A DNA stretch of 27,122 bases, from positions 1-27,122 of the IMG/VR virus record IMGVR_UViG_3300050821_004447, one strand, 5' to 3'. A program made the position numbers and the translations under genes. This DNA is from a virus. The notes beneath the pieces were generated by a model. That model was not told the DNA's origin and did no database searches. It saw only the letters and a program-made list of their open reading frames with translations. Of this stretch, positions 1 through 27,122 are shown one piece after another (the stretch's first letter is position 1; the number at the start of each line of letters is the position of its first letter).

Positions 1-1
1 C

Positions 2-610
2 AATGGCAGCGGCACCGGCCAGACCCATGCGCTCTACGTCGGCGATGCGCTGAGCCTGCTGGTGCAAAACAGCCTGTTCTGCGGAACCCTCGAGGGTCAC
101 AACATCAAGAGCCGGGCGCAGACCAGCACTGTCCAGAGCACCACCAGCTTTGACGGCGCCACCGGGGCCGGCTGCTCGAGCGCGGGGACGACGAGCTATG
201 GCATGGAGTTTCCCGATGGCGGGATCGTCAACCTGATCGACGACACCCTGATCCAGGGCGCTTCCACCCACAACAACAGCATGATCGGCTATGGTGCCGA
301 GGGCTACCCTTACGCCGACAACACCCTGACGCTGACCGACACCTCGCTGACCAGCAGCATCGGCGGGATCGGCATTCAGCACTTCGGCAGCACCGGCACC
401 TGCACGTTACAAGGCAGCACCAGTTTCGCGGGACCGATCACCAATGTCAGCCCGCCGTCGTTTTGCGTGAATGCGACGACGCCGGGCGGCCCCGCCACCG
501 TTCCTGAGCCGCAAACCTTGGCGCTGCTGTTGACCGCACTCGCCGGCTTCGGAGCGACGCACCTTGTCCGACATCGACTTCGCCAGCGGTCGCTGGACGC
601 CGCACCGTAA
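2..610 (+). CDS. Right-handed beta-helix protein with PEP-CTERM-like C-terminus (5' partial)
   Basis: The frame is open to the left edge, so the N-terminus is missing; the true start lies outside the window. The visible 200 or so residues are Ser/Thr/Gly/Asn-rich with the spacing of parallel beta-helix coils. They include a GHNIKSRA stretch followed later by FPDGG and YGAEG, a combination I associate with bacterial secreted beta-helix proteins. After a Pro/Gly linker the C-terminus has VPEPQTLALLLTALAGFG followed by a basic RHRLRQR tail. This is the order (PEP motif, hydrophobic helix, Arg cluster) of a PEP-CTERM sorting signal, recognised by exosortase in bacteria. Such a signal is unexpected beside phage genes. 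The last 47 bases overlap the SciP-like gene in another frame. It may be a phage cargo protein or the edge of host DNA; the close overlap favours the same compact genome. Confidence 0.75.
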   Translation, partial: NGSGTGQTHALYVGDALSLLVQNSLFCGTLEGHNIKSRAQTSTVQSTTSFDGATGAGCSSAGTTSYGMEFPDGGIVNLIDDTLIQGASTHNNSMIGYGAEGYPYADNTLTLTDTSLTSSIGGIGIQHFGSTGTCTLQGSTSFAGPITNVSPPSFCVNATTPGGPATVPEPQTLALLLTALAGFGATHLVRHRLRQRSLDAAP

Positions 611-851
611 GGCGGCGGTGCTCAAAGCGATCCGCGCCGGCGAGCTCAGCGTCAGCGAGGCGATGAGCCGCTGGGAGCTGACGCTCGAGGAGTTGCAGGC
701 GTGGGGTCGCGACTATCAGCGCTGGGGCCTGCGCGGGTTGAAGACCACCCGGACCGGAGATTTCCGCGCGGGTCAGCCTGACATGGCGCAACACGGCGGC
801 CGGCGGCCGGGCAGCGGCAGGCCGAAGGGAAGCGGGGGCACGGCGCTGTAG
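564..851 (+). CDS. sciP: SciP-like (DUF1153) transcriptional regulator with AT-hook-like tail
   Basis: This is a 95-residue protein close to the ~93 residues of Caulobacter SciP. Residues 9-62 carry the family pattern: a GRWTPHRKAAVLKAIRAGEL block, then a helix-turn-helix-like segment ending in WGLRGLKTTR. In Caulobacter SciP binds DNA and blocks activation of CtrA-dependent cell-cycle promoters; that role is family knowledge, not shown here. The C-terminus is unusual: GGRRPGSGRPKGS resembles an AT-hook or the Arg/Gly/Pro tails seen at phage DNA-binding proteins. The start is TTG at 564, chosen because GGAG lies about 9 bases upstream (551-554) and the conserved block begins only eight residues later. 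It overlaps the preceding gene by 47 bases. A cellular sciP would normally stand alone, so the setting suggests a phage-borne copy. Confidence 0.82.
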   Translation: MSDIDFASGRWTPHRKAAVLKAIRAGELSVSEAMSRWELTLEELQAWGRDYQRWGLRGLKTTRTGDFRAGQPDMAQHGGRRPGSGRPKGSGGTAL

Positions 852-1010: not shown

Positions 1011-1298
1011 ATGGCTCAAGGTCCCGGCTACTGGATGCACGAGACCAGCGGCGTGTTGCGCCCTGCCGTCGTCGCTTTCCTCGAGGGCGCCGAGCTGACG
1101 CCCGAGCATATCGCCATGCTGCGGGCTTACTGCCGCCAGTGGATCGGCGCCGATGTCTGGGATCAGAACCCGCACATGGGCGAGACGGAGCGGGCCTGGC
1201 TTGCCGCGATGCGCGCCGATGTCGATAAGCTGACGACGCGCGCCGCGATCTCGCACTGGCTGTGTCGCGCGACTGAACAGGGGCTCGACCCGCTATGA
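1011..1298 (+). CDS. Conserved hypothetical protein (95 aa)
   Basis: This is a 95-residue soluble acidic protein with no signal peptide or membrane segment. Its N-terminus, PGYWMHETSGVLRPAVVAFL, followed by a helical segment with LTPEHIAMLRAYCRQWI, looks like a small family I have seen as unnamed proteins in alphaproteobacterial genomes and prophages; I know no function for it. The ATG at 1011 directly follows AGGGG, which is rather close for a Shine-Dalgarno site. A second ATG at 1035 (before HETSG) is possible, but the conserved GYW would then be lost. The stop overlaps the next start as ATGA, so the two genes are translationally coupled. Confidence 0.72.
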   Translation: MAQGPGYWMHETSGVLRPAVVAFLEGAELTPEHIAMLRAYCRQWIGADVWDQNPHMGETERAWLAAMRADVDKLTTRAAISHWLCRATEQGLDPL

Positions 1299-1735
1299 CC
1301 GCATTGCTGCTCGGGCCGGCGGAACAGGCCGCGTTGCGGGTGATCCGCGAGCGCGCGGCAGCGCACCCGATTGATATGCTGAGCCTGCCGGGCAGCATGG
1401 AGTCGGAGCAAGGGCGGGCGGCCCACCGCGCCCAGATGACCAGCCAGACGGTCGAAATCCCGGTGCACTACATCGTCACCTATTCGGTCGAGATCGGGCA
1501 CCCTTGCGGACCCTGCCGCCATATGTCGATGTCCGCGCCGCGCGCGGGGCGGATACCGAACCCGCCGGCGGTGTGGAGCGTCGCCGAGGAGCTCGGTTTT
1601 GTCGGCGGGTTCGAGCGCTGCGCAGTGTGGGTCGAGGAGCTGGTGCGCGGCACCGCCAAGGCCGAGGCGGTCAACGTGGTGCAGCCGATCGGCGTCGTCG
1701 CCGAACGCGAGACCGGGCGGCGCTATGACGCTTGA
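1295..1735 (+). CDS. Conserved hypothetical protein (146 aa)
   Basis: This 146-residue protein starts with ATG overlapping the previous stop (ATGA). The central part has a beta-type core, VEIPVHYIVTYSVEIGHP, followed by CGPCRHMSMSAPRAGRIPNP and a C-terminal FVGGFERCAVWVEEL segment. The CxxC plus His in GHPCGPCRH could bind a metal, but I do not recognise a named family; similar proteins occur as unnamed ORFs in alphaproteobacterial phages. Its position inside a run of small overlapping + strand genes fits an accessory or early phage operon. There is no signal peptide. The function is unknown. Confidence 0.72.
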   Translation: MTALLLGPAEQAALRVIRERAAAHPIDMLSLPGSMESEQGRAAHRAQMTSQTVEIPVHYIVTYSVEIGHPCGPCRHMSMSAPRAGRIPNPPAVWSVAEELGFVGGFERCAVWVEELVRGTAKAEAVNVVQPIGVVAERETGRRYDA

Positions 1736-1913: not shown

Positions 1914-2113
1914 GCAACAATCGCTGGAACAGGACCGAGGCGAGGCTGCGACATGACGTCCACCGGGCGGCGGCATCCAAGCGTCCGCTCACCGCTCGCA
2001 ACATCCGGCGGCTGATCAGGCGGCTGAGCCCGGAGACCGCGGCCGAGCACAAAGACCTTATCGACGGGGCGCTGGCGAAAGCACGCGGCGAGCCGGACAC
2101 GGCGCCGAGGTAG
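1910..2113 (+). CDS. Small basic hypothetical protein (67 aa)
   Basis: This 67-residue Arg-rich protein has its ATG at 1910 overlapping the previous stop (ATGA). It is basic at the N-terminus (RWNRTEARLRHDVHRAAASK) and then has two predicted helices around ARNIRRLIRRLSPETAAEHK. I do not recognise the family. Nucleic-acid binding is possible from its charge, but that is only inference. The TAG stop at 2111-2113 lies inside the tRNA gene that starts at 2104, so the CDS and tRNA share 10 bases. Such an overlap implies that the tRNA is processed from the same transcript or has its own internal start. Confidence 0.6.
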   Translation: MSNNRWNRTEARLRHDVHRAAASKRPLTARNIRRLIRRLSPETAAEHKDLIDGALAKARGEPDTAPR

Positions 2114-2179
2114 CTCAGTCGGTAGAGCAGCGGGCCGAAAACCCGTGTGTCGGCGGTTCAATTCCGCCCCTCGGCACCA
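2104..2179 (+). tRNA. tRNA-Phe(GAA), CCA encoded, C33
   Basis: A full cloverleaf can be folded by hand. The acceptor GCCGAGG (2104-2110) pairs perfectly with CCTCGGC (2169-2175). The D stem is GCTC/GAGC, the anticodon stem GCGGG/CCCGT (one G-U pair), and the T stem GGCGG/CCGCC with loop TTCAATT. The discriminator is A76 (2176) and CCA is encoded at 2177-2179. The anticodon loop is CCGAAAA, giving anticodon GAA (Phe) with T at D-loop position 20 and A73, as expected for Phe identity. Position 33 is C rather than the near-universal U, which is odd. The first 10 bases overlap the 3' end of the upstream CDS. It may be a phage-carried tRNA or an integration-site tRNA; no integrase is visible to decide. 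Confidence 0.93.
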
Positions 2180-2373: not shown

Positions 2374-2410
2374 AAAACGCAAAAAGAGCCCCAGCCGTGA
2401 GGCCGGGGCT
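2374..2410 (-). terminator. Rho-independent terminator of the leftward structural operon
   Basis: Read on the - strand, AGCCCCGGCC pairs with GGCTGGGGCT (10 bp including one G-U) around a TCAC loop (2387-2410), followed by CTTTTTGCGTTTTG. On the + strand the G-U becomes an A-C mismatch and there is no T-run, so the orientation is clear. It lies about 110 bases past the last - strand gene, where the structural operon should end. Confidence 0.85.
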
Positions 2411-2493
2411 CATCTCGTCGCAGCGGGAACTGGTCGCGTCCGGCCGATCCTAATCCGAAAGGCTCAGGCGGGGGAAGCGAAAGGCTTAGCGCG

Positions 2494-26331: not shown

Positions 26332-27122
26332 CTACAGCTTGTCGAAGTAGCCCATCGTCGATGGGTAGATGACTTCGAGAACACCCAGCCGGCCGTAGTA
26401 GCTGGTCTTCTGCCAGATCGCATCGAACTGGATTGGCGTGCGGGCGAGCAAGGTCATCGGGTAGCGCACATATTCCGAGTTCTTCGTGTAGACCACCATC
26501 CGGTCATTCGCACCTGGTGCGGCGGTCCCAATGGTGCCCCCGGCCCCTGCCCCGTTGCACCATTTGCACGGGTAGATTTCGAGCCGGCCCGCACCTGAGC
26601 GCGCCAGGATGTTGTTCTCCTCGATGTATCTGAGGATCGAGGTGGTGCCGGCGGTCGAGACGAGCTGCGTGGCGATGTAGCCATACTGCGCGGTCGGGAG
26701 CAGGGTGCGCGACGGCACCACGGCCCAGCCCGATTGCTGCCACACGGTGTTCAGCGCGAAGTTGAAATCGGCGAGGATTTCGGCCGGAGTCTTGCCCTGC
26801 ATCCAGCCGGTCGGGTTGCCGGTGCCCGCACCCGCCGGGAAGTTGGTAATAATCCCGACGCCAGGGACACCCGGAGCAGCGACGGGGAGATTTACTAGAC
26901 CTTTATCTCCGGTATCACTATCGCCGACATACACCATTGCATCGATATCCATCTGATGCTTGAGGCGCATGCCTTGATACTTCTGCTGATCTATCGGGCG
27001 CCCGATCTTTAGTGCGCTTTCGAGTTCCAGCACGGTGTATTTGAGCTCGATCGCCCACGGCCGCAGCGGCTTGGTGAGCTGGGCGATATCGACGCTGACG
27101 CCGGCAATCTCGGTCGTGTTCT
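26332..27122 (-). CDS. Major capsid protein, DUF2184-type (5' partial)
   Basis: The frame runs off the right edge; the apparent start at 27033 is an internal GTG. Reading further upstream gives TTEIAGVSVDIAQLTKPLRP, then WAIELKYT, which join ELESALKIGRPIDQQKYQG, LKHQMDIDAMVYVGDSDTGD and KGLVNLP, the typical DUF2184 capsid pattern. The C-terminus (GANDRMVVYTKNSEYVRYPM, TPIQFDAIWQKTSYYGRLGV) also fits. DUF2184 proteins form the HK97-fold shell of several myoviruses. At least 260 residues are visible. As the first complete-function head gene, it fixes the operon direction (right to left). Confidence 0.9.
   Translation of the reverse strand, partial: NTTEIAGVSVDIAQLTKPLRPWAIELKYTVLELESALKIGRPIDQQKYQGMRLKHQMDIDAMVYVGDSDTGDKGLVNLPVAAPGVPGVGIITNFPAGAGTGNPTGWMQGKTPAEILADFNFALNTVWQQSGWAVVPSRTLLPTAQYGYIATQLVSTAGTTSILRYIEENNILARSGAGRLEIYPCKWCNGAGAGGTIGTAAPGANDRMVVYTKNSEYVRYPMTLLARTPIQFDAIWQKTSYYGRLGVLEVIYPSTMGYFDKL

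Follow-up and report, generated by a model that had tools for sequence, protein, structure and literature searches.

Why should a virus carry a relative of SciP, a repressor of CtrA-activated genes that binds CtrA itself as well as DNA, the latter at GCGNC-N5-GNCGC or GCGAC (PMC8973945, PMC4287350)? The question arises from a short ORF near the left end of an IMG/VR virus record of 27,122 bases, the whole of which was analysed here and is called the window; the phage genome itself is incomplete. A preliminary description had placed a SciP-like gene in a phage-type gene run beside a tRNA and structural genes, and the annotated features agree with that layout:

2-610, plus strand: secreted, beta-helix-like protein bearing a PEP-CTERM sorting signal (TIGR02595), truncated at its 5' end by the contig edge
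564-851, plus strand: SciP-like/DUF1153 regulator, 95 aa, TTG start (Pfam, NCBIfam, predicted fold)
783-851, plus strand: added C-terminal tail of the regulator, MAQHGGRRPGSGRPKGSGGTAL, similar to the start of a phage protein whose gene adjoins a terminase-like gene
1011-1298, plus strand: conserved phage gene, PGYWM-ETSGVLR family (59% identity to an L019 gene, 50% to L004)
1295-1735, plus strand: conserved phage gene, function unassigned (50% identity to L004 10001-10396)
1725-2113, plus strand: two small overlapping ORFs, 1725-1913 and 1910-2113, coding-model calls only
2104-2179, plus strand: tRNA-Phe (GAA), CCA encoded (ARAGORN)
2386-2411, minus strand: terminator-like hairpin between converging gene blocks
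2523-27122, minus strand: contractile-tail module (fibres, baseplate, tape measure, sheath, neck, head), syntenic at the protein level with the L019 phage

A shortened SciP core with an added tail

By sequence, the ORF at 564-851 is a DUF1153/SciP homologue, as had been proposed. Pfam DUF1153 (PF06627) matches it with E 3.4e-17 and 62.8 bits, above the curated cut-off of 23.5 bits, residues 9-68 aligning with profile positions 28-87, and its best NCBIfam model is CtrAInhibSciP ('CtrA inhibitor SciP', E 2.5e-17). The protein misses the equivalog cut-off of the latter (62.8 versus 100 bits); a genuine Sandarakinorhabdus sciP (L005) likewise stays below it at 91.7 bits, so that the cut-off is strict for this lineage. 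These E-values, together with the homologues in other phages, exclude a chance match.

The gene shares positions 564-610 with ORF 2-610, which is the 47-base overlap reported earlier. Because an in-frame stop at 531-533 closes the frame upstream, TTG 564 is the earliest usable start, and the canonical N-terminal ~25 residues of SciP are therefore truly absent. The absent segment, VIGPDGSPLTIADLPP, is mostly missing in Sandarakinorhabdus SciP too and is kept in the phage L014 and L015 copies. The core is largely conserved across copies (R-W, R-K-A, E-x-x-x-W, G-x-x-G-L), in the window protein up to GLxTTR: it has the same HTH core and C-terminal GLxTTR motif as SciP of Caulobacter and other Alphaproteobacteria, and over 59 residues it shares 51% identity with SciP of Sandarakinorhabdus. 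It differs from host SciP in lacking the N-terminal segment, in its basic tail, in its phage location and in having no ctrA neighbour. The predicted structure has a three-helix core (helices 13-25, 30-37 and 41-58; pLDDT about 90 over residues 11-60), with low confidence in the tail region. A fold search returned 2jrt as a weak top match (E 0.85, TM 0.44), and the viral fold library gave no convincing match. By sequence, 2jrt (Rhodobacter) and 2oa4 (Silicibacter), both solved DUF1153 proteins, belong to the same family, but they are chromosomal and full-length whereas the window protein is phage-borne and shortened.

The C-terminus, GGRRPGSGRPKGS, is a terminase-type tail with a minimal AT-hook core only. 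The tail had been called AT-hook-like: an added tail is indeed present and, written as GGRRPGSGRPKGSGG, contains a GRPK core, but Pfam recognises no AT-hook in it. A phage protein (L002) whose gene immediately precedes a terminase-like gene opens with a string highly similar to the protein end, GGRRPGSGRPKGSGGTAL (15 residues at 93% identity, the nearest match found), so the tail may derive from a gene fusion; it is missing from the other viral DUF1153 copies. The terminase-like tail could also indicate that the protein is another accessory HTH, a transposase OrfA-like or terminase-small-subunit remnant merely resembling SciP, and weak HTH_Tnp_1, IS66 TnpA and transposase matches point the same way. 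This is improbable: DUF1153 scores 62.8 bits against 16.3 bits for HTH_Tnp_1 in Pfam, no adjacent transposase gene was found, and four chromosomal look-alike paralogues fall into a separate supported group (below).

The gene in its phage genome

A similar picture could arise from a chromosomal host gene bordering a prophage, or from a chimeric assembly, given that the adjoining PEP-CTERM gene (19.1 bits against TIGR02595, cut-off 16; slightly under the Pfam PEP-CTERM cut-off) is host-type and a tRNA lies close by. A second virus contig, G195 (42,365 bp), makes this explanation very improbable. Window 26467-27122 reappears at 93% identity as the first 656 bases of G195, and window 1-147 at 96% as its last 147 bases; since both contig ends overlap the window ends, G195 complements the window, as the other part of a closely similar phage. 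The two were kept as separate sequences, not joined, and may be different strains. ORF 2-610 runs on into the right end of G195, which ends with RecT, small genes of early type and a pair of PEP-CTERM genes, the latter of the pair being this same ORF; the PEP-CTERM gene thus stands downstream of RecT and phage early genes, and the SciP-like gene lies between the RecT/early region and the tail module.

The downstream genes are also common to phages. The small genes 1011-1298, 1295-1735, 1725-1913 and 1910-2113 form the overlapping block described earlier, and homologues of the first two (50-59% identical) were found, both in L004, where they are directly adjacent as well, and the first in L019; none was found for ORFs 1725-1913 and 1910-2113. 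The L019 phage (69,179 bp) has a terminase, a portal, its own DUF1153 gene, a tail module syntenic with that of the window and a PEP-CTERM gene at the matching position. A search of IMG/VR for relatives with the tail sheath as query gave no matches. Neither ctrA nor mnmA lies near the SciP-like gene in the window. Given the overlaps with G195 at both ends and the downstream genes shared with other phages, the gene is truly phage-borne: the locus is not a chromosomal sciP, which would have undone the viral interpretation, and is flanked by phage early and tail genes, the minus-strand tail, baseplate and head genes running rightwards from about 2.5 kb. The same overlaps and shared genes rule out an origin in a host flank. 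The tRNA-Phe was considered as an attachment site marking a host boundary, but this found no support: the genes to its left are phage genes and it is at most 89% identical to sampled alphaproteobacterial tRNA-Phe genes.

Host copies, phage copies and their companions

The nearest chromosomal relatives found belong to Sandarakinorhabdus-type Sphingomonadales (47-51% identity). The CcrM site GANTC occurs 22 times in the window where 116 would be expected, a five-fold depletion that is similar in G195 and G201 and comparable to that in loci of the candidate host Sandarakinorhabdus; this fits a CcrM-bearing host. We infer a virus of alphaproteobacteria, for which a host family of the Sandarakinorhabdus type is likely. 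Separately, GATC is over-represented in the window (282 versus 168 expected). Of four Sandarakinorhabdus-type genomes, three encode an exosortase, in keeping with the PEP-CTERM proteins borne by the phages. Such secreted proteins are encoded at window 2-610, L020 7401-8096, L069 2828-3547 and L074 11348-12142.

Whether the host has its own sciP had been raised as a check: as 114 of 120 genomes drawn from the likely host family carry their own DUF1153 gene, it very likely does. In Sandarakinorhabdus and Paracoccus sciP sits between mnmA and ctrA, with a few genes between in Sinorhizobium, a context absent in the window. Extra DUF1153 copies exist in Sphingomonadaceae genomes: of nine loci inspected, most lie among ordinary chromosomal genes, and six were placed in the tree, where four make up the separate supported paralogue group. 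A second DUF1153-like paralogue family appears in Sphingomonadaceae chromosomes (L106, L107, L109-L114), several members lying near atpC or glmU-like genes, and mobilizable or conjugative plasmids of Novosphingobium and Sphingomonas (L062, L066) carry extra full-length DUF1153 genes distant from ctrA.

Beyond the window, about ten IMG/VR contigs carry DUF1153, as does the cultured Erythrobacter phage XM05, the sole match among 50,697 phage records and found with each of five queries; this amounts to about eight (at least eight) further distinct phages, two of them with two copies. The carriers are G195, G196 (two copies), G197, G198 with a near-identical contig, G199 (two copies), G200, G201, G202 (a divergent copy), L121 and XM05, and DUF1153-bearing contigs include portal, terminase, DNA polymerase, helicase or major head genes. 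G197 and G198 have full-length copies; those of XM05, G200 and the window are trimmed to the core. In G199 (L017 9959-11320), DUF1153 is apparently fused in frame to a membrane- or secreted-like protein of about 450 aa.

Whether the copy groups with viral or prophage proteins had been raised as a further check, and in the tree it does group with other phage copies: the window protein pairs with the G195 DUF1153 protein (support 95/85) and, more weakly, with both copies from the L017 phage. Resting on about 60 columns, the tree is weakly resolved. A single origin of all viral copies has a p-AU of 0.37, and in an earlier tree no fewer than two label changes were required; phage copies may have entered more than once.

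Several of these phages also encode other relatives of the host circuit. G195, and not the window, carries a CtrA homologue (L067 15919-16617), about 2.3 kb from its SciP-like gene, consisting of a receiver and Trans_reg_C. It is 38% identical to Sandarakinorhabdus CtrA (E 3e-44), and its best NCBIfam model is CtrA (153.4 bits, under the cut-off of 350 bits; next model 116.6). Its receiver has lost the acidic pocket: the phospho-acceptor Asp (D51) is replaced by Asn, IEDD by IEPT and KPF by MPF. GcrA homologues occur in two DUF1153-carrying phages, G196 (L013 19001-19537) and G202 (L071 9863-10342), and G199 has a stand-alone CtrA-type DNA-binding domain. These are individual co-occurrences, for which no enrichment is claimed.

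A candidate role in the CtrA network

Because the core is conserved, SciP-like action is the best guess for the phage protein, and we put the probability that it acts as an early regulator modifying CtrA-dependent host transcription at a little above one half (about 0.55). The protein would be a minimal SciP, the HTH core of a host CtrA inhibitor acquired from an alphaproteobacterial host, shortened at its N-terminus and extended by a basic phage tail. Being downstream of the early (RecT) region, the gene is probably expressed early. Its product would most likely sit on CtrA or at CtrA-dependent promoters and alter CtrA-activated host transcription during infection, in one direction or the other, the candidate targets being division, methylation, flagellar, pilus or surface genes; the host might then be held in a favourable cell-cycle state, as suggested earlier. 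The CtrA-like protein of this phage type might be its partner or its opponent. Several observations count against this reading: the N-terminal segment of canonical SciP is absent, the score stays below the equivalog cut-off, the window has neither CtrA sites nor a significant excess of SciP palindromes (below), the CtrA homologue lies in G195, and some weak likeness to transposase-type HTH proteins persists.

Alternatively, the protein could be a SciP-fold regulator of phage promoters, for example in an early-to-late switch, that has lost its contact with CtrA. The long branches of the phage copies, the loss of the N-terminal segment in most of them, the new basic tail of the window protein and the two-copy phages, which resemble a case of specialised paralogues, would all be consistent with this. 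We consider it rather unlikely, given that the core is conserved up to GLxTTR and that CtrA or GcrA homologues in several SciP-carrying phages point to the host circuit. No CtrA consensus site occurs in the window, even when one mismatch is allowed, and its 12 SciP palindromes (GCGNC-N5-GNCGC; 7.6 expected) are equalled in 10 of 100 shuffles and thus not significant, which is a weak argument for host over phage targets. A further alternative is a moron, expressed from a prophage and altering motility or surface of the lysogen, unrelated to lytic growth. In the window and in G196 the PEP-CTERM gene, a phage-borne exosortase-substrate gene, is directly upstream of the DUF1153 gene, and outside Caulobacterales and Hyphomicrobiales CtrA takes part in motility (PMC9437464); on the other side, profile searches identified no integrase or repressor in the window, itself part of an incomplete phage genome, and there seems little chance that this is the explanation.

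A regulator acting early on CtrA-dependent host transcription would not stand alone. Some phages carry GcrA or CcrM analogues, and phages use host CtrA at their own promoters (PMC9437464). According to a passage of that paper citing Gill et al. 2012, phage phiCbK has a GcrA homologue, again a phage-borne version of a transcription regulator from the host cell cycle; GcrA is, however, a different regulator that works with sigma70, while SciP restrains CtrA. In lytic deferment, alphaproteobacterial phages have CtrA-binding sites (PMC9437464), and phage regulation is tied to the CtrA circuit in both cases; there, host CtrA acts on phage promoters, whereas in the present case a relative of a CtrA regulator is phage-encoded and CtrA sites are absent from the window. 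In the titles, abstracts and passages searched, which excluded subscription literature and preprints, we found no report of a phage-encoded SciP; within the same bounds, 'DUF1153' returned no paper and a search on CtrA homologues with phage returned no phage-encoded CtrA.

Tentatively, and with the odds still against it, we hypothesize that the lineage has a miniature CtrA-SciP circuit, in which a phosphorylation-blind CtrA and one or two SciP-like partners would replace the host CtrA programme or block it while infection proceeds, so that CtrA promoters would no longer be coupled to the host phosphorelay. SciP-carrying phages may rewire host cell-cycle or motility control. If true, a SciP that recurs in phages, and in one contig lies near a dead-receiver CtrA, would mean that phages act on the alphaproteobacterial CtrA network itself, and the minimal SciP cores would reveal which part of SciP suffices for CtrA control.
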